Position numbers and translations under genes: made by a program. Under the pieces are notes generated by a model. It searched no databases. It saw only the letters and a list, made by a program, of their open reading frames with translations, and was not told the DNA's origin. This document shows, in pieces, positions 5,369 to 50,455 of a DNA stretch of 64,000 bases (the first letter of the stretch is position 1; every line of letters begins with the position of its first letter). The DNA is from Thermoproteota archaeon. Its GTDB lineage: Archaea; Thermoproteota; Thermoprotei; Thermoproteales; Thermocladiaceae. The DNA lies in assembly GCA_013153275.1 (NCBI GenBank), contig JAADER010000033.1:1-64000 (forward strand), given 5' to 3'.

Positions 5369-6673
5369 TCACCTGAAGTGTCTTAATCTTGGATTTAACA
5401 CTTCTTCTAAACCTCTACCTATTAGTACAAATGCTAGACACACTATTGAGAGCATTATGCCAGGAGGAATCCACTGCCACCAGTAGACGCTCCATAGTGC
5501 CCTCTCTGCGCTCTCTAACATTATGCCCCATGTTGGCCAGTTCGGGTTTGTTAGGCCTAGGAACGCTAGTATAGCTTCTGATAGTATTGCAGATGGTACT
5601 GAGAGAACAGTTCTTATTAATACGTAAGGCATCACATGTGGTAATACATGCTTAAACATTATTCTACGATCAGTAGCACCTATTGCACGTTCAGCCTCTA
5701 TGAACGGTGTCGCAGATGTCTGTTGAGCTATGACGTGCACTACTCTCGCAGTTCCACCCCACCCAAGCAGGCCCAGTATCAGGGCAACTGTAGGTGGGTC
5801 AGGTGGTGAGACGACAGAGATCAACATCAGGAGCAGGAGACCAGGGAAGTTTATTATAACGTCGTAGAACCAGACCAAGCTCTCGCTCATGAATACTCTG
5901 CCTAGTCTCCCGAGAAGTCTACCTATAAATCCCTGATATCCGCTAAGTATTCCGAGGCCTACGGCTATTACTGTCGATACTAGGGCAGCTATCAGTCCCA
6001 CCATTAGCGATATTGGTGCACCCCATACAAGACCAGCCCACTGGTCTCGTCCTACGTTGTCTGTACCGAGAAGACCGTAAACGCTGCTCTTTACTATGAC
6101 CTGCATGTCTAGACATTTTGAATGTTCTACAACTACTATGAACCTATAGACTCCTCTTCCACCTCTCTCGAAGAGCTTTGCTGTTACTAGTGGGCTAGGC
6201 ATAAGTATGTGGAATATGTTGAGAATGTAGTCTCCGGACTCGATATCGAGCGTCACGGATGAGGATGAGGATATTGAGTAATCTACAGGTAGTTTCTCAC
6301 CATTTGGCAGTATGACGTAGAGTACTGTCTTAGCAAATGTCTGTGGTTTATGTACTATGAACTCTATATCCTGTGGTGGAACATCATAGTGATAATAATA
6401 GTCGAACTCGCAGACGCTTGATCCATTTCCCTGTACCTTAGTTAATATATACGGTGCATATGTCTTTCCCGTGAATAACGATATCCATGATGGAGGTGCA
6501 TTTATTGGGTAATACGTCTCCCAGTACGTCAAGTTTGACCACTGAGTAAACACCCAAGAGTACTGGGTAAACGCTAGGGCGCACATGTATAATATTATGC
6601 CTAGGAAGACTAGTCCAGCTATGACGTTCTTGTTCTTCAATATCTGGATTATGAGTTTTCTTCTCTCGCTCAT
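5369..6673 (-). CDS. ABC transporter permease (DppC/OppC type) with large extracytoplasmic insert
   Basis: The 434-residue permease has one N-terminal membrane helix (about residues 18-38), a roughly 160-residue mostly beta-type segment likely outside the cell, then the five-helix permease core. The coupling helix region reads EAERAIGATDRRIMFKHVLPH, matching the EAA motif that docks on the ATPases. Bacterial DppC is near 300 residues, so the insert after helix 1 accounts for the extra length; similar inserts are common in archaeal members. The start lies four bases after the DppB-type gene. Confidence 0.9.
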   Translation of the reverse strand: MSERRKLIIQILKNKNVIAGLVFLGIILYMCALAFTQYSWVFTQWSNLTYWETYYPINAPPSWISLFTGKTYAPYILTKVQGNGSSVCEFDYYYHYDVPPQDIEFIVHKPQTFAKTVLYVILPNGEKLPVDYSISSSSSVTLDIESGDYILNIFHILMPSPLVTAKLFERGGRGVYRFIVVVEHSKCLDMQVIVKSSVYGLLGTDNVGRDQWAGLVWGAPISLMVGLIAALVSTVIAVGLGILSGYQGFIGRLLGRLGRVFMSESLVWFYDVIINFPGLLLLMLISVVSPPDPPTVALILGLLGWGGTARVVHVIAQQTSATPFIEAERAIGATDRRIMFKHVLPHVMPYVLIRTVLSVPSAILSEAILAFLGLTNPNWPTWGIMLESAERALWSVYWWQWIPPGIMLSIVCLAFVLIGRGLEEVLNPRLRHFR

Positions 6674-6677
6674 GATC

Positions 6678-7745
6678 TCACCCTCTTCTCAGCCTTGGAT
6701 CTAGTATGAGCACAAGTATGTCAGCCATAAGCAGAGCGCCAGCATATATAAGTATTAGCACATAGGTGACTGAGAGTATCATAGCTATGTCATGGCTCAG
6801 TAGTGCATTCCAGAAGAGCCATCCCATTCCTGGCCAGTTAAATACTTGTTCGATGACTATTCCTCCACCGAAGGACTCTGCTAGTGCTATTGCGGTCATT
6901 ATCACTATAGATGGCATCGCGGCTCTTAGTGCGTGGCCATAGATTACCTTACGTTCAGGTACGCCTTTAGCACGTGCTGTTAATACATAGTCTTCTCTGA
7001 GCACATCAAGCATCAGTGCTCTAACTATTAGAGCTCCACCTCCAAAATGTAGCAGAGCAAGCGACACTATTGGAAGAACGAGATGCCTCAGAACATCTAT
7101 GGGGTTACTCAGATTTGGTACTCCAGGCGGTGGAAGAAGCTTCAGCTGGAAGGCGAATATGTATATGAATATCATCGCGATATAGAACGCTGGTATGCTC
7201 CATGTAGTTATGCTGAATAGAGTTATTGCATTATCTGCAAGGGACCCTCTTCTAGATGCTATGTATGGACCTACCAGCAGAGCAAGTCCTATACCCACTA
7301 TGGCCGAGGTGACGAGAAGAAGCATAGTGTTAGCTATCGCCTGAGCAATTATCTGCGCAGTGTTTGTTCCTGAGAATCCTAGCTGCTGATATGCTCTCAC
7401 GTTGTTTGTCTGAGGGAAGTTGAATGTTAGGAAGGACCACAGATAGTACCCTAACAGGTTGAGCTCATTAACTATCTCTGGCGCGTGACATCCACAGAGA
7501 GAGTAGCAGTAATGGTACTGGTACTTCAGCATGTTACATGCTATCAACTTCACGTACTCGTTCACGTTTATTCCTGGCCTCTTCGCAGCTATCATCTTCA
7601 CGGCTCTAGCGGCTCCCTGAAATGCCTCTACAACGACCAGCTTACTGTACAGTGGATACATGAGGAAATACGTTATAAGCAGGACTGCCAGCACTATGAC
7701 TACTCTCTTCACAGTCTGATTTGCTATATATCTAATGCTTACCAT
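6678..7745 (-). CDS. ABC transporter permease (DppB/OppB type)
   Basis: A 355-residue integral membrane subunit of the family-5 importer. After the first helix there is an external segment with several Cys residues (CYSLCGCHAPE), which could form disulphides. The core contains the EAA-like coupling motif TARAKGVPERKVIYGHALR and ends in a typical LDPRLRRG tail. ATG at 7745 is preceded by a GAGGT ribosome-binding sequence about nine bases upstream and by its own TATA box, so permeases and ATPases can be made separately from the binding protein upstream. Confidence 0.92.
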   Translation of the reverse strand: MVSIRYIANQTVKRVVIVLAVLLITYFLMYPLYSKLVVVEAFQGAARAVKMIAAKRPGINVNEYVKLIACNMLKYQYHYCYSLCGCHAPEIVNELNLLGYYLWSFLTFNFPQTNNVRAYQQLGFSGTNTAQIIAQAIANTMLLLVTSAIVGIGLALLVGPYIASRRGSLADNAITLFSITTWSIPAFYIAMIFIYIFAFQLKLLPPPGVPNLSNPIDVLRHLVLPIVSLALLHFGGGALIVRALMLDVLREDYVLTARAKGVPERKVIYGHALRAAMPSIVIMTAIALAESFGGGIVIEQVFNWPGMGWLFWNALLSHDIAMILSVTYVLILIYAGALLMADILVLILDPRLRRG

Positions 7746-27813: not shown

Positions 27814-30234
27814 TTAAGTATTTCTGAACGTAGACTCGCCCTCCTCATTAATAAACTCAACACGTATTATGTTATCAGCCACAGTCTCAAACGCATCAAC
27901 ATGACTAGTAATTATTATCATACCTACCTCACTACTCACATTCTTTAACCACTGCGCAATTCTTCTTCTATGCTCATCATCTAGATGTTCTGTGGGCTCA
28001 TCAAGAATTAGGAGAGGAACATTACCAAGAACAACTTTTGCAAGAGCATACCTGAACAATAGAGCAACTAGGTTACGTTCACCAACTGAGAGAGCGTCAA
28101 CGCTTAGCTCTACTCCATCTCTCCTCTTAACATATATCTCATAGTCCTCGGTAACTCTTATGCTAACGAATGCTGTCTTATGACAAACTTCTATAAACAT
28201 TGAGTTCAGTTCATTATTTAGAAGTTCTAGAAATATCTTACGAATAACCGGTTTTATCTTATCTACAACATCAATAACCTTGCTTATAAATTTATGAGCC
28301 TCATGATATTTAGAGTACTCTTCTCTCAGTTTATCTCTGAGAGCCTTCTTTTCTCGTATCTCTTTCTCAAATCTATCGATCTGTTCCTCTAACGTGACCA
28401 GTTTCCCCCTAATCTCACCTATCTTATCCATAATACTTCTCAGTTCTTCCATTATGGACTCATGCTCCATTCTAAGATTATCAAACCTCTCCTTTAGGGA
28501 GGACAGTGACTGAAGCTCTCTCCTGATCTCCTCTATCTCTTCACGTATCTCCTCTACATGTTTCTCGACCTGTTCGATCTCCTTTAGGGACTCCTCGCAG
28601 CTTGCAATCTTTCTCACTAGGTGATCTCTCTCCTCTAATCTCTCATTTATCTGAGATAGCTTCTTCTCAATATCTTTAATCTCTTTATCTATCTTATCAA
28701 GTCTTTTTTCCAGTGTTTTACTATTTTTGAGTAGGTTCTCTAATCTCGATATTTCTTCCTCAAGATTTGCTATGTCTTTCCTGATATCCTCCATTCTACT
28801 GACTATATCTTCCTTTCTTGATATTGTCTCGCGGATACGGTAGAACCTCTCTTTCAATTCTTCTTCTCTATTAACGAGCCTCTCATACTTATCTATCTTC
28901 TGCTTGAGAGCCTCTATCTTCTCAGTAATATTTCGTAACTCCTCTCTCTTTCTTTCCAAAATCTCTCTCCTATGGTCATCTGTAAGCTCTCTACCACATA
29001 GAGGACATATACCATGACTATCCTCTAGAAGTTTTATCTCTTCCTCAATCTTGACCCTTAAAGCTTCAAGACTTGCTAGCTCCTCTCTGAACTTCTCTAA
29101 GAGTCTCTTAGCCTTCTCAATCTTTCGAAGCTTCGTCTCGATATTAGAGATAGTACCCTCTAACTCCTCAATATTTTTCAATTCCTTCTCTAGCTCTGTA
29201 AGCTCACGTCTACGTCTATCCAGGAGAGATGAGAGCCTAGTATATGTCTTCTCATAGTTTTCGATACCTTTCAACTCTGATTCAAGTCTCGCCCTACATT
29301 CTCTCAAGCTCTCTAACCTATCTCTAAGTCTCTCAGCTTCCTCGACAAGACTATCAAGCTCTCTTAACCTCTCCCTAAGCCCCTCAAGCTCTCTTACGGC
29401 CTCCTCAAGCTCCCTTCTTCGGTCTTGAAGTCTCTCAAGCTCCTTCTCTTTCTCCTTTAACAGTACCTCGAGCTGAGAGATCTTATTCATATAATTTTCA
29501 TAGTTTTTGAGATCCTGCTCCAGTTCCTGTCTACGGCTCTCTAAGAGGCTCTTCTTTCTCTCAAGCTCAACTAGTAAAGCATTAAGTTTAGATAGCTCTT
29601 CACGATACTGCTTTACTGTTCTCTCCATTTTAGAGATCTCCTCCTCAAGAATTGAAAGCTTCCCCTCAATACGCCTAAGATGCATCTCCGCAAGCTTCCT
29701 TATCTCTCTCAGATAATCACTCCTCAACTTTTCTAGAGACTCTATACGGAGAACCTTGTCAAGCTTAGTCTCGGTTCTTCTACCACTTTCTAAAATTGAC
29801 CTAAGCTCTCCCTGTCTGACATATAGTAGCTCCGAAAAAACGTTAACAGACACATTTAAGACCCTCTCAACAAAACTCGTAACCTCTCTATCTCTAGAAG
29901 CGAGTCTTTTTCCAGACTCGTCGAGCACGTACGTGTTTGCTTCAACAGTCTTATCGGGAGTAAAGACCCTCTGAACAGTATACACCCTTCCATCTACTCC
30001 TCTAATCTTCACACGTATAATAGACGTTCTTGCCCTAACCCTAACAAGATCGGCGAGTCTCAGACGAGCCTTTCTGAGCCACTCTGAGCCGTATAATGCG
30101 TATGCTAACGCGTCCAGTATTGAGGACTTTCCTGCACCATTAGGACCATGTATGAAGTTTATGCCTTCAGTAAACTTAGCTCTACCATTCACGATGGACT
30201 TAAAGTTCTCTATGCTGAGCTCAGTTATCGACAT
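27814..30234 (-). CDS. rad50: DNA double-strand break repair ATPase Rad50
   Basis: Rad50 works with Mre11, HerA and NurA in DNA-end resection. The 806-residue protein has Walker A GPNGAGKSS near residue 32, two long coiled coils, the zinc hook CPLCG at about residues 408-412, the ABC signature LSVGERNLVALLFRYAL and Walker B LLILDEPTEHLDD near the C-terminus. It is four bases after mre11. The coiled coils are on the short side, as in other archaea. Confidence 0.97.
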   Translation of the reverse strand: MSITELSIENFKSIVNGRAKFTEGINFIHGPNGAGKSSILDALAYALYGSEWLRKARLRLADLVRVRARTSIIRVKIRGVDGRVYTVQRVFTPDKTVEANTYVLDESGKRLASRDREVTSFVERVLNVSVNVFSELLYVRQGELRSILESGRRTETKLDKVLRIESLEKLRSDYLREIRKLAEMHLRRIEGKLSILEEEISKMERTVKQYREELSKLNALLVELERKKSLLESRRQELEQDLKNYENYMNKISQLEVLLKEKEKELERLQDRRRELEEAVRELEGLRERLRELDSLVEEAERLRDRLESLRECRARLESELKGIENYEKTYTRLSSLLDRRRRELTELEKELKNIEELEGTISNIETKLRKIEKAKRLLEKFREELASLEALRVKIEEEIKLLEDSHGICPLCGRELTDDHRREILERKREELRNITEKIEALKQKIDKYERLVNREEELKERFYRIRETISRKEDIVSRMEDIRKDIANLEEEISRLENLLKNSKTLEKRLDKIDKEIKDIEKKLSQINERLEERDHLVRKIASCEESLKEIEQVEKHVEEIREEIEEIRRELQSLSSLKERFDNLRMEHESIMEELRSIMDKIGEIRGKLVTLEEQIDRFEKEIREKKALRDKLREEYSKYHEAHKFISKVIDVVDKIKPVIRKIFLELLNNELNSMFIEVCHKTAFVSIRVTEDYEIYVKRRDGVELSVDALSVGERNLVALLFRYALAKVVLGNVPLLILDEPTEHLDDEHRRRIAQWLKNVSSEVGMIIITSHVDAFETVADNIIRVEFINEEGESTFRNT

Positions 30235-30238
30235 AATA

Positions 30239-31531
30239 TCAGAAGAGTAGTGACCTTATGTCACTATCCTGTCTTAATTGAAGCCCCAGAATCTTCTCAA
30301 ATAATCTTACAACATTAGCCTTCTCTCCCCTCTCTACCAGGTCTATGAGCTCTAGCAGCATGTTCTCTATCTTACCCACATCAGGATCATTCTTCAGAAC
30401 CTCTCTGACAGCTCTCTTAATTATGATATCGATTCCATAGTACTCTCCGGAGACTCCTCTCGACGGTACTCTCGGAATCTGACCTGATGGACGTTCGATC
30501 TCGATCCTGAAATCGACTCTAAGAACGTTTCTAAACATTCTACGATACTGAGAACACTGGAGATCTCGCACAGAGTATCCCCTAGCAATTCTACCTTTAA
30601 TCTCCAGTTGTAGATAAGCTTCAGGAATATCAAACTTCTCTATTATATACACTATATCTCTACGAAGACGTGATGGATCGATTTCGTCATACTTCAGTAC
30701 TACCTTTACCATTCTTCGTGAAGGCTCTACAGTAACAGGCTCCACTCTGAACTTACCACTAGACTCGGACACATCAAAGAGTAGAAAGCCCTTTCTTGAC
30801 ATGTCTCTAATCTTGGTGAGCTTACCATTCTCTAGAACATAAGTCTCGAACTCGCGAGAATCCCATATCTCAAGACTACCAGGATAGTATACAGGAAACT
30901 TAGGATGCCTAAGATTAAAATCATGAATGTGACCACACAGAAAGAGCACATCTCTGCCATCCATAGCAGACTCAACGATCTTCGAACTTATAGCATAATA
31001 ATCTATGTTAGGCATTGGGTAAAGATATGGAGTACCCTCGACATACTGATGCAGAAGTACTATATTAGGAGCATTCTCAACAAGAGAGTTAAGGATATAG
31101 GCATATAACTTGTTCTGATGCTCAGTATATATGCAGCCGTAACATACGAAATTGAGGTCCCCAATCTTACATACGCCTCGCTCTACATATCTTACAAGTC
31201 CCATAGATGATAACACAGTCAACGGATTCTCGCTAGGGTTTATGACCGAGGCCTCATGGTTACCTCTTATTACTAGGATCTGAAGACCAGCCTCTCTAAG
31301 CTTTCTTAGACAGTCAATAGCGTTAATATATGCCATAGGGCCAGGTTTCGCGCTATCAAAAAGATCGCCACATATTACTACAAGATCTATATCCTTCTCC
31401 TCCTTCAGCCTTAGAATCAGCTCTACCGCCCTGTTAAACGCTCTGGCATAATCTTCGGCACGTTTATCGAGTCCGTACTGACGATGGCCTATATGGACAT
31501 CTGCTAAATGAGCTATCAGCATTGCCCTCAC
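30239..31531 (-). CDS. mre11: DNA double-strand break repair nuclease Mre11
   Basis: This Mn-dependent 3'-5' exonuclease/endonuclease has 430 residues. Phosphoesterase motifs are HLADVHIGH, ICGDLFD, RGNHE and LCGHIHD, in order. The C-terminal part is a capping and Rad50-binding region. Its ATG overlaps the herA stop (ATGA), and rad50 follows at four bases. Confidence 0.97.
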   Translation of the reverse strand: MRAMLIAHLADVHIGHRQYGLDKRAEDYARAFNRAVELILRLKEEKDIDLVVICGDLFDSAKPGPMAYINAIDCLRKLREAGLQILVIRGNHEASVINPSENPLTVLSSMGLVRYVERGVCKIGDLNFVCYGCIYTEHQNKLYAYILNSLVENAPNIVLLHQYVEGTPYLYPMPNIDYYAISSKIVESAMDGRDVLFLCGHIHDFNLRHPKFPVYYPGSLEIWDSREFETYVLENGKLTKIRDMSRKGFLLFDVSESSGKFRVEPVTVEPSRRMVKVVLKYDEIDPSRLRRDIVYIIEKFDIPEAYLQLEIKGRIARGYSVRDLQCSQYRRMFRNVLRVDFRIEIERPSGQIPRVPSRGVSGEYYGIDIIIKRAVREVLKNDPDVGKIENMLLELIDLVERGEKANVVRLFEKILGLQLRQDSDIRSLLF

Positions 31532-33501
31532 CTTACAGTATCCTCACCAGGTCTTAAATTACCGTCTAGAAAGGCTCTTGCAAGTAGCTGCATAACGTGG
31601 CTACATGGTGTAAGCATGACACCATTACACTTGGTGCATGACCATGTTCTGTCACCGAGCCTCACCTCAACATATGCGCCTTTGACAAATCCCGAGAGAA
31701 CACCGTCCTCCATTGAGTACTTGTCAACCATACAGGCAGAAACCAGAGCTCTCTCAGCCTCAGCTTTAGGCACCTCAACATCGAACAATGATGACACTAT
31801 TCTACGAAACTCTTCCAGCTTATTGTCACTTGCAGAATATGATTTGCTCCACTCAGCCACAATATCGATGTCGGCGCCTCCATAGTCAAGCACACGATCA
31901 CGTAATCTTATTATGACAGGCATAGGCACGACAGGTCCTGTCACTATTGCCTCTCCGACATTGAGCTGCGGTATCAGTCTCGAGATCTCTGAATCAACAA
32001 CCTCGCTTGCCTGAACCACAGCATCAATATCTCGAGGATTAACGAGCCTGAGAATTATCTGACTATTACACTGGCTTAAAACGTCTGGATCTATTCTGGA
32101 AGGCCTCTGCGTAATTATGACTAGATATACTCCAAACTTTCTACCCTCACATGCTATCTTGGATAGCGTCTCTATACTCCACTTCCTCTCCTTACTACGT
32201 GGAGGTGCGAACTTGTGAGCCTCCTCGACTACCACAACAACAGGATAGGGATATTTTGGACCCCTAAGACCTCTCACATGCCTTATCCTTGCTGCAAGTA
32301 TGCGAGATAGGATATGATGAACCACATGATCCTGAACTTCGTCGCTAACGCCCGCCAGGTTCAGTATCGTTATATGTCTAGGCTTTAATAGCCTGTTCAG
32401 CGGTGTAGAGAAGTAGGTGTATACTCTAAGCCTCTCTAACTTTCTCAATCTTATTATTACAGAGGCAGCAACCGCTCTATTTCTCTTATCTTCTGCGAAC
32501 TCTCTAAGCTCGTTTATGAGCGACTCTATCTTTCTACGTATCTTTATATCAATGCTATTAAGTACCGATTGATCGAATCTTGGTCTTAGTATAGTTGATA
32601 GCGAGCCTATGGATTTTATCTTACCGGCAGCGACAGCACGTAGAATCCTCCTAATGTTTCTCAACGTGCAGAACCTCTTATCACCTGTAGCCTCTCTTAT
32701 AAGCTTGAGTAGACTATGTGCAAGAACTAGGACGTGCCTCATCTTTGCAGCATTTGGAGGTATTCTCATAAGAGATGCGAGGGTATCAGAGTCTATGGCA
32801 GCAACATTTATCCTATACTTTTTCTCTCCTGGCTGATATTTCGCTATCTTGAACACAGTTACAGACCCTCTATATTCGGGTCCTAACCTCTCTACTGTTC
32901 TCCTTATCGGGACGTACTCTCCGTGAGGATCTATAACCACTATTGTGGCTCCCTTTTTCAGAAGCTCCTCTATTAGCAGAACGCTGGTCCAAGTTTTTCC
33001 GCTACCTGTCGCAGCGATAATTGCGAGATGTCTACGTAGGCCATTAACATCAATGAAGGCAGGTATAGACGGTCTAGTCACCAGATAGCCTATGTGAAGA
33101 CCTCTTCTTTCAGGAACCTCAATAAGCTTTCTCACATCCTCGTCATCAGCTAAGTATACTGGGCTACCTACAGGAGGTACCGAACGAGGCTTAAGTATGA
33201 CATCTCCTTTCCTGAATCCGAGAGTTATGACCTTACCTGACAATACCTCTATCAGGCTCTCATGAGGTGTTGATTCTATGATATCAGCTATGTAGGACTC
33301 TGGGGTGAGCCTATAGGGTTCTCTCCTGATATCAAGTATCTGACCTATAACCTTGACATTCATTAGTTTTCCGTCTACCTTATCTACTACCTCATAGTAC
33401 ACGTAATCGTATCTTGACACATTTATCCTCTTTAGTGCTACTGAGAGAACTCCGGCTCCTTCTGCTGCTACTACATAACCTACTGGTTCTCTGATACCCA
33501 T
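31528..33501 (-). CDS. herA: bipolar DNA helicase HerA with C-terminal zinc-finger-like extension
   Basis: HerA is the hexameric motor of the HerA-NurA resection complex. Walker A is ATGSGKTWTS near residue 166 and Walker B is VVVVEEAHKFAP; the N-terminal barrel (HAS) and the motif IITQRPSRIDPDVLSQCNSQIILRL are typical, the latter shown in part of its length. Most HerA proteins are near 500 residues; this one has 657. The extra tail (from about 535) ends with CTKCNGVMLTPCSHV (C622, C625, C633, H635), which looks like a SWIM or related zinc finger and may add DNA or protein binding. Confidence 0.93.
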   Translation of the reverse strand: MGIREPVGYVVAAEGAGVLSVALKRINVSRYDYVYYEVVDKVDGKLMNVKVIGQILDIRREPYRLTPESYIADIIESTPHESLIEVLSGKVITLGFRKGDVILKPRSVPPVGSPVYLADDEDVRKLIEVPERRGLHIGYLVTRPSIPAFIDVNGLRRHLAIIAATGSGKTWTSVLLIEELLKKGATIVVIDPHGEYVPIRRTVERLGPEYRGSVTVFKIAKYQPGEKKYRINVAAIDSDTLASLMRIPPNAAKMRHVLVLAHSLLKLIREATGDKRFCTLRNIRRILRAVAAGKIKSIGSLSTILRPRFDQSVLNSIDIKIRRKIESLINELREFAEDKRNRAVAASVIIRLRKLERLRVYTYFSTPLNRLLKPRHITILNLAGVSDEVQDHVVHHILSRILAARIRHVRGLRGPKYPYPVVVVVEEAHKFAPPRSKERKWSIETLSKIACEGRKFGVYLVIITQRPSRIDPDVLSQCNSQIILRLVNPRDIDAVVQASEVVDSEISRLIPQLNVGEAIVTGPVVPMPVIIRLRDRVLDYGGADIDIVAEWSKSYSASDNKLEEFRRIVSSLFDVEVPKAEAERALVSACMVDKYSMEDGVLSGFVKGAYVEVRLGDRTWSCTKCNGVMLTPCSHVMQLLARAFLDGNLRPGEDTVR

Positions 33502-33503
33502 AG

Positions 33504-34979
33504 CTATGCACCCATTATTAAGGTATGTATTCTACGTCCCTTGACCTCATCCAGGTTCCTTATGGCCACCATCTCATACTCCCTGAACTCGCTGTCACTA
33601 AATGTTACATAGTTATGTGCTAGCCACAGCATCCTATTATAATGATAGGGGTCCTTATACTCCGAGTACAACATCTCAAGCGTGTTCCACATATTGAAGC
33701 TGTCGTAGAATATTTTTGGAGGTATTGTATCGTCGAACAGTCTCCATTTTGGTATTGTCTGTTCTATAAGTATTGGAGAGTCGTCTTTTCTGAATTTCAC
33801 ATATGTGAGGAGAATTCTTGGAAAGTACTCAAGCCTATCTTTAACTCTCTTTGCTAGTCTACGATACTCTTCTGCTTCTTCCTCGTCACACATTCTCAGC
33901 ATTATGCTGTCTTCTACTCTATCTATTATCATTCTATATATTGCTTCTGGTGTGACCAGTTTCTTATCGTTCATGTATGCATCTACTATGCCTATAAGTA
34001 GCTTTCTAGAGATTGCAAATGATATGTTGTTCCTCGACGCTATGTATTCGAGGACGCAGGTATCTGTCACAGACTGTGATATAACTATTCTTATACCCTG
34101 ACGTACGGTCTCTCTCTTCGCTCCGTTATAGTCCTTTGCTAGCTCTACTAGCTTCTTTCTATATCTCCTGAGCCATACTATGCTATACCATTCTGCTCCC
34201 CGGGTAAATATCTCGTAGACGTCTGTCGAAAAGTTGAATGATGAGTCCTCTTTTAGAGCCTCTTTAAGCATCGTGAAGACTATGTGATCTTTCAGCATTT
34301 TTAGACTAGAGTTCTTCGATACAAAGACTATGTTAACGTTGTAGCTCCCACATATGTCGAGAAGAGTACATAGCTTGTATAGGTTCTCCATTATCTCAGG
34401 AACATAGTACAGGTCCAGGAAGCCTCTCGTGAGTATGAGATTGTGTACTGCTGCAGTGAACCTAGCGTATAGGCTTCCGTCGACGAGGAGATACTTCTCC
34501 CTATCGTCCGGTAGTGAGGCCAGCTGTTCAACGACTGCCCTGATGCAGGTGTCGAGCTCTGCTATCCCAAGATAGGTCCAGTAGGCTGCCGAGCTGGGAA
34601 CTGGGAGGTACTTCGTCTTGAGGGTTCTCACTGGTTGTGCTCCGAAGTTGTTTACGGCTATGGCTCTTGCTATGACCACCTCTGAGCCATCTGTGAACGA
34701 TATCGTACGTATTCCTCCGTCCACAGCTACGACATAGTAATCGCTTCTTCTTGATAGTCCTCTCAGCCCGCGCCATACCTCGTCTGGTCTCACGTTGTCC
34801 AGTATCCTCAATAGAGAAGCATGTGTCCTCTCCTGTCCGTTCCTGAGCTTCTCCTTCACGTCCTTCTCGAACTCTCTCGCATATAGGTCGAAGAACAGGT
34901 CAGGCATCTCGCGATTATACCTTGCTCTTACGTGATTTATTGGTCTGTTGTGTATTTTCTGTAAAGTAGCGTTCGGCAA
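33504..34979 (-). CDS. nurA: 5'-3' nuclease NurA
   Basis: NurA is the nuclease partner of HerA. The 491-residue protein has the catalytic AVDGGIR motif near residue 83 and LLVDGSLYARF near 168, two acidic sites of the RNase-H-like fold. The length is greater than in Sulfolobus (about 340), with extra helical segments in the middle. It is first in the operon nurA-herA-mre11-rad50-thiDN, two bases before herA. Confidence 0.9.
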   Translation of the reverse strand: MPNATLQKIHNRPINHVRARYNREMPDLFFDLYAREFEKDVKEKLRNGQERTHASLLRILDNVRPDEVWRGLRGLSRRSDYYVVAVDGGIRTISFTDGSEVVIARAIAVNNFGAQPVRTLKTKYLPVPSSAAYWTYLGIAELDTCIRAVVEQLASLPDDREKYLLVDGSLYARFTAAVHNLILTRGFLDLYYVPEIMENLYKLCTLLDICGSYNVNIVFVSKNSSLKMLKDHIVFTMLKEALKEDSSFNFSTDVYEIFTRGAEWYSIVWLRRYRKKLVELAKDYNGAKRETVRQGIRIVISQSVTDTCVLEYIASRNNISFAISRKLLIGIVDAYMNDKKLVTPEAIYRMIIDRVEDSIMLRMCDEEEAEEYRRLAKRVKDRLEYFPRILLTYVKFRKDDSPILIEQTIPKWRLFDDTIPPKIFYDSFNMWNTLEMLYSEYKDPYHYNRMLWLAHNYVTFSDSEFREYEMVAIRNLDEVKGRRIHTLIMGA

Positions 34980-47366: not shown

Positions 47367-49340
47367 CTAGGTCTCTAGACTCTCTCTGAGTCTCGTCATT
47401 ATGTTCTCTATCTCCTGTATCTCAGTTCTAAAGAAAGCTGACACAGTTGGACCCCACCTGTTCTTCACATCATTAAGAATCTCGTAAGCTTCCTCAAGTC
47501 TCTCTCGCGCTTTGTCAAAGAGCAGGTTATTTATAAGAGCCTTTATCTCTGATATAAGCTCGTAGAGTCTTGAGAGCTCGTCAGGCATGTGCGCCTTGAC
47601 GAACGTATGGTACTCGCTTAGCTGCTCTCTATTATTTATAAGGTACTTCAACACTCTCAACGTTGCGATACGTATAGTGTATGGATCAAGTACGAGATCA
47701 CCAAGTTCCAGCGCAATGAGAGAGGCAACATATAGAGCAACCTTGACTCTCGTTCTATTGCTCACAGGCACATGCTCTATGAAGCTCGCTATGATCGGCG
47801 AAACATGTCTAGCAAGAGCCTCAAGGTTAGAATATACAAAGCCTAGAAGAGAATCATGACACATCTTCACGTCACTCATCGACGCTACAGATGAGAGACT
47901 CTCTAATTCTCTTCTAAGAAGCCATCCCTTAATTATGAGGTTCTCAGTCTCCTCTGGCATAGCATAGCTGAGGAACGATCTCAGCGGAAATCTATCATAG
48001 AGCGCTTGAAGCTCCTCATCTTCAGGTACTCTGTTAGAGGATGCATATACCGTCCAGGTCTTGACCGGTATGACCTTATCGCCGTCATATATGACCCTCT
48101 CATTAAGTATGGATAGCAATGTGTTAAGTATGGCACTGGAAGCATTAAATATCTCATCGAGCAGCGCTAGATCCGACTCCACGATGCTGTTCGCATATAT
48201 TCTAACGACTCTACCTTTGAGAAGCTCTGCTATATCTATGGGCCCCAGTATCTCCTCGAGATCTGTGAACTTTGTAAGCTGTCTGTAGAACCACTTTGCG
48301 TTTAGAAGCTTAGATAACGTGTATATTAGAGTAGTCTTTCCCGTGCCTGGGGGACCTATGAGGACATAATTCTCTCTTGATAGGAGGGACATGAATATTC
48401 CCGTTATCTCGTCTTCAAGTTTGTAAAACATGCTCTGCATCTTCAGGTATGCCTTCCTGATCCTCTCAATGCTTGACTTGAGGCTTGTCTCCACATGTGT
48501 TGTTTGACGTCTCTCATTTATAGGTCTTCCACCTATGCAGATAATGATGACGGACGAGGTAACAAGTATCATTCCCACTATCTCTGTTGGTGTGATGACT
48601 ATCCTGTGCAACATGCTCTCAACAACTATGGCTGATACCGGCTCTATACTGAGAGCAAATGCTACAATTGTGGAATCAAGATCCTCATGCGACATGCCTT
48701 CAAGCATATAGCATACATGTACTATAACTGCAAGCAATGTACATATTGCTAGGAGCTCAATTATGTTGCGTACTCTACCAATAGTGAACATAGATAGTGC
48801 TCCGCTCATAGCGGCGGTTATCATATATGTGGCTATGTTCAGAGCCTCAAAATCATGGTCTTCACAGAACCTGTTATAGAGCACTACATATATTGTGTAT
48901 ACTACGGCAAGTGCTATTCCAGCTACTAGTCCAATTATGTTATACCTTGTTGCTTTAAATAGGAGGAATACTCCTATAGTATATAATGGTACTGTTATGA
49001 GAGCTGCTTTCCCATTATATCCGTCTACTATCATTGTTAGTATGGGGTATAACTGTGCTATGAATGCTATGAATGCGGCGTTTGTGTACTTAACTCCTAT
49101 GTAGAAGAGCGCCATGCTTATGATGTTTAGTGTAGCGAGTATGCTTCCTCTTGCCAGCACTTTCTCGTCTATCAGTATCTTTCTACTTCGCATCTCTACT
49201 ATCCCTATCATGGTGAGCATGAGGTACACTAGGAACGTCACAAGTAGGTAGTTTCCCAGAGTAATAGCTAGCTCAGTGAGAGGGTAGGTTACTCCCCAGA
49301 GTATTCCCGCAGTTATTGCATATACTACTGCACGTCTCAT
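47367..49340 (-). CDS. fusion of EamA/DMT-type membrane transporter with MoxR/RavA-type AAA+ ATPase
   Basis: One continuous 657-residue frame. Residues 1-270 hold about ten membrane helices with the EamA pattern (ITAGILWGVTYPLTELAI, YTNAAFIAFIAQLYPIL, SIEPVSAIVVESMLH). A short charged linker (272-290) leads into a MoxR ATPase: Walker A GPPGTGKTT at 329-337, Walker B LALLDEIFNA at 391-400, the MoxR segment NTLLSILNERV, sensor 1 VYASSNRVP and a helical C-terminal lid. MoxR/RavA proteins are chaperone-like motors usually paired with VWA proteins; none is adjacent. ATG at 49340 has a GAGGTGA ribosome-binding site. I know of no standard family with this architecture. A lost stop between two formerly separate genes is the simplest origin. 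Confidence 0.85.
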   Translation of the reverse strand: MRRAVVYAITAGILWGVTYPLTELAITLGNYLLVTFLVYLMLTMIGIVEMRSRKILIDEKVLARGSILATLNIISMALFYIGVKYTNAAFIAFIAQLYPILTMIVDGYNGKAALITVPLYTIGVFLLFKATRYNIIGLVAGIALAVVYTIYVVLYNRFCEDHDFEALNIATYMITAAMSGALSMFTIGRVRNIIELLAICTLLAVIVHVCYMLEGMSHEDLDSTIVAFALSIEPVSAIVVESMLHRIVITPTEIVGMILVTSSVIIICIGGRPINERRQTTHVETSLKSSIERIRKAYLKMQSMFYKLEDEITGIFMSLLSRENYVLIGPPGTGKTTLIYTLSKLLNAKWFYRQLTKFTDLEEILGPIDIAELLKGRVVRIYANSIVESDLALLDEIFNASSAILNTLLSILNERVIYDGDKVIPVKTWTVYASSNRVPEDEELQALYDRFPLRSFLSYAMPEETENLIIKGWLLRRELESLSSVASMSDVKMCHDSLLGFVYSNLEALARHVSPIIASFIEHVPVSNRTRVKVALYVASLIALELGDLVLDPYTIRIATLRVLKYLINNREQLSEYHTFVKAHMPDELSRLYELISEIKALINNLLFDKARERLEEAYEILNDVKNRWGPTVSAFFRTEIQEIENIMTRLRESLET

Positions 49341-49408
49341 GCTCTCACCTCAAGGGGTCACAAGCGAACTAGGGAAAGCTGGCTCAAATAGTACAACCAA
49401 GAACCTAA

Positions 49409-49416
49409 TTATAAAA
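49409..49416 (+). promoter_or_regulatory. TATA box for the ftr gene
   Basis: TTATAAAA at 49409-49416 would start transcription near 49439. An AGAGGAG ribosome-binding sequence at 49447-49453 then precedes the start codons, so this mRNA probably has a short leader. Confidence 0.5.
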
Positions 49417-49456: not shown

Positions 49457-50455
49457 GTGAGAGTGGCTGGAAGGATATTTGAGAGATCGTTCAATTATAA
49501 AGGAGTTGAAATAGAGGACGTACAGGTCGAGGCATTTGACGGGCTCTTCCTGAGAGTCCTCGTGACTGCAGAAAGAGGAATAAAGCCTAAAGACATAGAG
49601 AGTCCATGGCTAGAGGATGACGAACTAAGATGGATAGCTTACAGAGCAACCTCGACACCATCAATAGTTGTTGGGAGACTTGAAGCAGGAACTGAGATGT
49701 ATGTCCCATCAGAGAGAACTCCCGACAAGAGAGATGGAGTCGTGATACAGTACTGGTACAGCTACAGGAGAGATATATCTGTCGAGGAGCAGATTAGAAA
49801 GTTCTGGAGAGAGGTCTCGATAAGGATAAGGCAGGACATACTCTCATGCTCGGGAGGCACCTCAAGATTATTCAATTATCTTCCTAAAGAAGTCTCGGTA
49901 GGCGAAGTAGACACTTACGAGCTTGTTGGAAAATGTGGAGGAGGATATGAGAGAGTGGTAAACAAATATGATGGAAGAGAGATGATAATAGTACCTCTGA
50001 TGAGCGGATTCGACTTTGAGATAGAGAGAAAATTATTATACGGAATAGGCATAGCCGGAGCAGCCTTATGGATCTTCTGTACTAGCGTGAACGAGTGTAG
50101 GGAAGCATGTAGAGAAGCTGTGAAAAGACTCTACAACGTTGAAGGATGTATAACACCATTTGGAGCATGCCCATCTGGCTCACTTCCAGAAAACTATCCT
50201 CCTATAGGCCCGCCAACAAACTACTATTATTGTCCATCTCTGAGAAATATTGTGAAGAATAGCAAGGTTCCCGAAGGGGTCCGAGCGATATATGAGATAG
50301 TTATCAATTCTATGGACATAGACTCTCTTAGGAAGGCTATAAGAGAGAGTGTTAACGTTCTCGTTCAGTATCCTGGAGTAGTTGGGATATCGGCTGCAAA
50401 CTATGGAGGAAGGCTAGGAAGACTCCTTCTGAGGCTCTCCGATTTACTTTGCTAG
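49457..50455 (+). CDS. ftr: formylmethanofuran:tetrahydromethanopterin formyltransferase (Ftr)
   Basis: Ftr moves the formyl group between methanofuran and tetrahydromethanopterin in archaeal C1 metabolism. Matching blocks are YKGVEIEDVQVEAFDG, GRLEAGTEMYVPSERTPDKRDGV, PEGVRAIYEIVINSM and PGVVGISAANYGGRLGRLLLRLSDL. The length is 332, about 35 more than methanogen Ftr, with inserts near residues 55-65 and 100-130. It starts at GTG 49457, or GTG 49463, which is better spaced from AGAGGAG. It is divergent from the transporter-MoxR fusion; no other methanofuran-pathway genes are in the window. Confidence 0.88.
   Translation: MRVAGRIFERSFNYKGVEIEDVQVEAFDGLFLRVLVTAERGIKPKDIESPWLEDDELRWIAYRATSTPSIVVGRLEAGTEMYVPSERTPDKRDGVVIQYWYSYRRDISVEEQIRKFWREVSIRIRQDILSCSGGTSRLFNYLPKEVSVGEVDTYELVGKCGGGYERVVNKYDGREMIIVPLMSGFDFEIERKLLYGIGIAGAALWIFCTSVNECREACREAVKRLYNVEGCITPFGACPSGSLPENYPPIGPPTNYYYCPSLRNIVKNSKVPEGVRAIYEIVINSMDIDSLRKAIRESVNVLVQYPGVVGISAANYGGRLGRLLLRLSDLLC

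Follow-up and report, generated by a model that had tools for sequence, protein, structure and literature searches.

One minus-strand open frame in the window (the whole 64,000-nucleotide stretch of archaeal DNA that was analyzed) encodes an EamA-type membrane transporter joined to a RavA-like MoxR AAA+ ATPase (Table 1). The frame runs from an ATG at 49340 without an ambiguous base; stops occur throughout both other coding-strand frames, and the plus strand of the same interval contains many. An initial annotation, made from the sequence alone, had proposed a single transporter-MoxR frame here; its coordinates were right, and the strand, which it did not state, is minus. The computed mass of the product, 74.3 kDa, agrees with its estimate of roughly 73 kDa.

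Table 1. Features of the fusion gene in the window and, by contig, TatA/B-like genes in genomes of the genus
Feature	Position	Strand	Basis or remark
Whole fusion gene	47367..49340	-	657 codons plus stop; frame shared by five genomes of the genus
EamA/DMT transporter half, residues 1-270	48531..49340	-	Pfam EamA, AlphaFold, PDB fold matches
Linker, residues 271-289	48474..48530	-	Length and sequence vary (alignment of five fusions); residues 275-284 with pLDDT <50
RavA-like MoxR AAA+ ATPase half, residues 290-657 plus stop	47367..48473	-	Pfam bpMoxR; orthologue identity; fold nearest RavA 3nbx
Walker A GPPGTGKT, residues 329-336	48333..48356	-	Motif
Walker B LLDEIF, residues 393-398	48147..48164	-	Motif
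Sensor 1 region YASSNRV, residues 432-438	48027..48047	-	N436 invariant in 31 orthologues
Presumed Arg-finger region LYDRFPLR, residues 447-454	47979..48002	-	R450 and R454 invariant in 31 orthologues
Presumed sensor 2 region SNRTRVK, residues 527-533	47742..47762	-	R529 invariant in 31 orthologues
Shine-Dalgarno-like GAGGTGA, immediately 5′ of the ATG	49345..49351	-	Sequence; kept in 4/5 genomes
TATA-like box TTTTATAATT, putative promoter element	49407..49416	-	Sequence; similar box in 5/5 genomes
TatA/B-like gene	L071:2185-2490	+	Downstream of VWA gene
TatA/B-like gene	L072:5273-5584	-	Downstream of VWA gene
TatA/B-like gene	L073:509-802	-	Downstream of VWA gene

Four of the five genomes from the genus that carries the fusion have GAGGTGA or AAGGTGA 5′ of the same ATG; in G003, the compared stretch stops at an upstream in-frame ATG, and the region 5′ of the corresponding start is out of view. 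A T/A-rich box followed by GGTTC is found upstream of the gene in all five. An internal start yielding a free ATPase was considered and rejected, since no conserved Shine-Dalgarno sequence was seen, by eye, before the internal methionines at the EamA-ATPase junction in these genomes. The presence of a Shine-Dalgarno sequence at the EamA start and the lack of a conserved one at the junction favor a single fused product, short of proof. The linker might be cleaved, or an unconserved internal start might release some ATPase.

The carB and Ftr genes are common neighbors of the fusion gene in the genomes where the flanks were readable. The Ftr (formylmethanofuran-tetrahydromethanopterin formyltransferase) gene of the window, at 49457-50455 (+), is divergent from the fusion gene and 116 bases from it; this neighbor is kept in G001, G002, and G004.

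Transporter and ATPase halves of the fused protein

Ten membrane helices are predicted in residues 1 to 270, matching the "about ten" EamA-type helices of the initial annotation, and Pfam EamA matches two stretches in the first 267 residues (3.5e-16; 60.2 bits versus a cut-off of 28.2). The AlphaFold model of this half (pLDDT, 87.5; pTM, 0.85) has broken TM4 and TM9, and its best PDB fold matches are 5i20, LicB, and nucleotide-sugar transporters. TM-scores are 0.79 to 5i20_B and 0.81 to LicB 7paf, at 14 to 18% identity. The two EamA repeats and the ten-helix fold place this half in the EamA/DMT superfamily, and these features and the broken TM4 and TM9 are shared with YddG (5i20) and LicB. These known carriers are stand-alone proteins, whereas the transporter in the window is fused to an ATPase. 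No match to the EamA half with an E value of ≤1e-15 was found outside the fusion genus in 398 Thermoproteota genomes, and origin from a close paralogue was therefore set aside at that threshold; its relatives are only distant DMT proteins of about 19 to 25% identity.

Invariant helix positions in the EamA half are enriched in TM1, 3, 4, 6, 8, and 9 (53/148 versus 14/80 elsewhere; Fisher P = 0.004, with the grouping picked post hoc). Polar residues as a class are no more conserved than nonpolar ones (P = 0.35) but are more conserved than V, L, I, and M alone (P = 0.004). This pattern is a hint, no more, that the carrier core has been kept. If such a core is kept, binding or movement of a small molecule is probably still a function of the EamA half.

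The ATPase half is matched from residue 293 by Pfam bpMoxR (9.2e-46; 155.9 bits versus a cut-off of 27) and AAA_5 (1e-26; 94 bits); like the EamA match, both exceed the curated cut-offs. As the initial annotation had it, this is a full MoxR ATPase. Walker A (residue 329), Walker B (393), sensor 1 (N436), R450/R454, and R529 are all present, and the key motif residues sit in columns that are invariant across 31 orthologues. We take LYDRFPLR to be the Arg-finger region and SNRTRVK to be sensor 2 from knowledge of the family. Identity to separate orthologues in the order is 52 to 61%. The nearest solved relative, by both sequence and fold, is RavA (3nbx), with a sequence match that spans only residues 292 to 459; the score against the NCBIfam RavA equivalog, 82.7 bits, falls far short of its cut-off of 681 bits. 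The bpMoxR family belongs to ternary systems in which MoxR is accompanied by a vWA and a beta-propeller component. The MoxR domain in the window is above the cut-off for this family, and no beta-propeller was found among the scanned genes, which were the neighbors only.

Modeled in full, the protein has a pLDDT of 87.7 and a pTM of 0.58, with residues 275 to 284 below 50. These values indicate two domains that are each well predicted, joined by a linker predicted to be disordered, and a relative placement that is not well predicted. Because the helices are even in number and the ATPase needs ATP, the C terminus is taken to be cytosolic, and the loop charges point weakly the same way. No second close ATPase copy was found in the five genomes of the genus, which are 69 to 88% complete, so every subunit of an ATPase ring probably carries a transporter domain. 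At that completeness, a separate copy in any single genome could have escaped notice.

Conservation of the fusion and its VWA partner

The fused frame is without stops in all five examined genomes of the genus; in G004, the copy runs off a contig end and continues with its 3′ part on a different contig. The window protein has 87, 86, 59, and 58% identity with the other four fusions. Neither of the findings that the initial annotation had named as fatal to its claim was made: there is no stop or frameshift at codons 270 to 300, and the homologues are not always separate proteins. All titled fusion records are metagenome-assembled genomes, which speaks for a false joining of two genes during sequencing or assembly. 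Against this, assemblies that are separate and carry different isolate names share the fusion (three fusions were matched under public contig names to metagenome assemblies L_MaxBin.140, L_MaxBin.038, and 4281-140), it recurs with a clean frame in five genomes at identities as low as 58%, and carB and Ftr are the same neighbors where readable. An artefact has next to no chance of being the explanation and was ruled out on these grounds. Judged by these sequences, the gene fusion is genuine and fixed in one uncultured genus of heat-loving archaea, whose family also contains Caldivirga, Thermocladium, and Vulcanisaeta.

Pairwise identity among the five fusions is 37 to 91% in the EamA half and 73 to 93% in the ATPase core. 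In three close pairs, dN/dS is about 0.08 for the EamA half and about 0.04 for the ATPase half; these pairs were used for the estimate, the dS of distant pairs being partly saturated or undefined. The ratios show purifying selection on both halves. Between divergent species, dN of the transporter half is about 3 to 4 times that of the ATPase half.

Across the phylum sample of 398 Thermoproteota genomes, an ATPase match (E ≤ 1e-15) was present in 111, 4 of which are fusion genomes. At this threshold, the fusion is absent from the other 107, in which complete copies are separate frames of about 340 to 450 codons. A single pattern-based scan of public contigs gave matches only in this group and close relatives. 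The search for two-domain homologues in other crenarchaeal genomes, which the initial annotation had proposed, yielded them in four further genomes, all of one genus. The sole exception in frame length, a 769-codon ATPase in G367, was considered as a second fusion and rejected: its extra residues are intein-like and lie within Walker A, and a VWA gene then follows as usual. In translation, this RavA-like orthologue (L101:821-3094, +) reads GEPG, then CVTGDA ... LLSHN, then TAKS. The ATPase gene of a Vulcanisaeta genome, G020 (L054:6186-7308, +), is in pieces with stops between them, and several of its neighbors look split; these splits are likely sequencing errors.

Separate ATPase genes usually lie directly 5′ of a gene for a VWA-domain protein. 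The two genes directly adjoin in Caldivirga, Thermocladium, Pyrobaculum, and Thermoproteus (genus names partly inferred), and the same is true of all 16 loci read from other parts of the phylum. The VWA MIDAS motif, DKSGSM, is invariant in the aligned Thermoproteales set, and the two relatives' VWA proteins that were scanned fall just under the curated Pfam VWA cut-offs. In 45 genomes of the order, the ATPase was found in 43 and the VWA protein in 41 of those 43; the two with the ATPase only, G003 and G024, are incomplete genomes. Co-occurring VWA genes, which the initial annotation had suggested looking for, are seen, but not in linkage to the fusion, which has carB and Ftr as neighbors. Four of the five genomes of the fusion genus encode a VWA orthologue on other contigs, with its DKSGSM motif intact. 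ATPase-VWA linkage has also been lost in Vulcanisaeta, where the stem branches are alike (0.26 in the VWA tree and 0.3 in the ATPase tree), whereas the fusion genus has a longer stem in the VWA tree (1.07) than in the ATPase tree (0.44). The long VWA branch may reflect an altered partnership.

In the three genomes of the fusion genus where it could be read, the unlinked VWA gene (on L072, at 5614-6957) is followed about 30 to 55 bases downstream by a TatA/B-like gene. The VWA partner in G376 (L104:7474-9315, +) has an intein-like insert in its MIDAS motif, which in translation reads DK, then CLASSTLV ... FIVHN, then SGSM.

Proposed role of the fused ATPase

The lipid-binding proteins RavA and ViaA localize to the inner membrane of E. 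coli (PMC9489729). In NorQD, NorD acts as a plug in the NorQ hexamer and thereby activates a membrane enzyme (PMC9976466). The initial annotation described MoxR proteins as soluble motors with VWA partners; the VWA partnership is upheld by co-occurrence, but the inner-membrane location of RavA and ViaA shows that these motors are not simply soluble (PMC9489729). The fusion resembles RavA-ViaA in that RavA is its nearest solved relative, a VWA partner is also encoded in genomes of the fusion genus, and the site of action of RavA-ViaA is a membrane (PMC9489729). RavA, however, has no membrane helices and gets to the membrane through lipid binding by its LARA domain, while the fusion has a membrane domain of its own. 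NorQ-NorD is similar in that a MoxR ring there works together with a VWA protein on a membrane enzyme (PMC9976466), but NorQ is not fused to a membrane domain and instead binds its client in the membrane as a separate protein. The separate RavA-like ATPases of Caldivirga, Pyrobaculum, Thermoproteus, and other crenarchaea are orthologous and have the same motifs and the same VWA partner family; they differ in lacking a membrane domain, at about 340 to 450 codons, and in adjoining a VWA gene except in Vulcanisaeta. A MoxR/VWA pair at the membrane is thus already known, and what is new is that it carries its own membrane domain. The fusion is a new architecture built from known parts and not a new system. 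The view of the initial annotation that the architecture has no standard description still stands, as no description of an EamA-MoxR fusion was found in the literature searched, most subscription journals being outside its reach.

The reading that we rather favor is that of a MoxR/VWA chaperone tethered to the membrane, in which its own part resembles a carrier. The only RavA-like MoxR ATPase detected in the genus is joined to the C terminus of a ten-helix EamA/DMT carrier and, by analogy with NorQD and RavA-ViaA, would still form a ring with the VWA protein. With a carrier domain fused to the ATPase, several carrier copies would anchor the ring permanently in the membrane; the covalent architecture itself suggests tethering, one of the possibilities raised by the initial annotation, and the motor is probably tied to the cell membrane for good. 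The anchored ring would then remodel or mature a membrane-associated client.

The MoxR ring might instead act in cis, gating, powering, or assembling its own EamA carrier in a new form of ATP-coupled transport; the initial annotation had also allowed for a motor that remodels or drives the transporter. The covalent joining of the halves by a short linker agrees with this, as does the concentration of invariant positions in six helices, which is expected for a kept carrier core, but that helix grouping was chosen after the counts were seen. DMT carriers are secondary transporters that require no ATPase, and the known role of MoxR motors is to serve other proteins as chaperones; on balance, we regard action in cis as unlikely. 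A secondary carrier with a built-in, ATP-fueled AAA+ ring, in which up to six DMT carriers surround the MoxR ring, a VWA protein forms a plug, and hydrolysis gates or drives the passage of a metabolite or lipid, appears decidedly improbable. The fusion could also be near neutral, two unrelated functions placed on one chain by accident, with the linker cut or tolerated and the ATPase working as the separate protein does elsewhere. The variable, predictedly disordered linker and the faster divergence of the transporter half would fit such an accident. Even so, every genome of the genus has the fusion, unbroken by any stop or split, despite divergence of the transporter half to 37 to 42% identity, and near neutrality seems a rather poor prospect.

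MoxR/VWA pairs are widespread, with few known targets. If the fused carrier represents a functional partnership, the fusion would hint that the crenarchaeal MoxR/VWA pair has its site of action at the membrane and that a DMT carrier is perhaps its target. Such a membrane partnership could be tested directly in cultivable relatives that have the separate ATPase.

In two relatives (L045 and L034), the ATPase-VWA pair lies near the DNA-repair genes rad50, mre11, herA, and nurA, as identified by Pfam. The same four genes are found in the window at 27814-34979, about 12 kb from the fusion gene.
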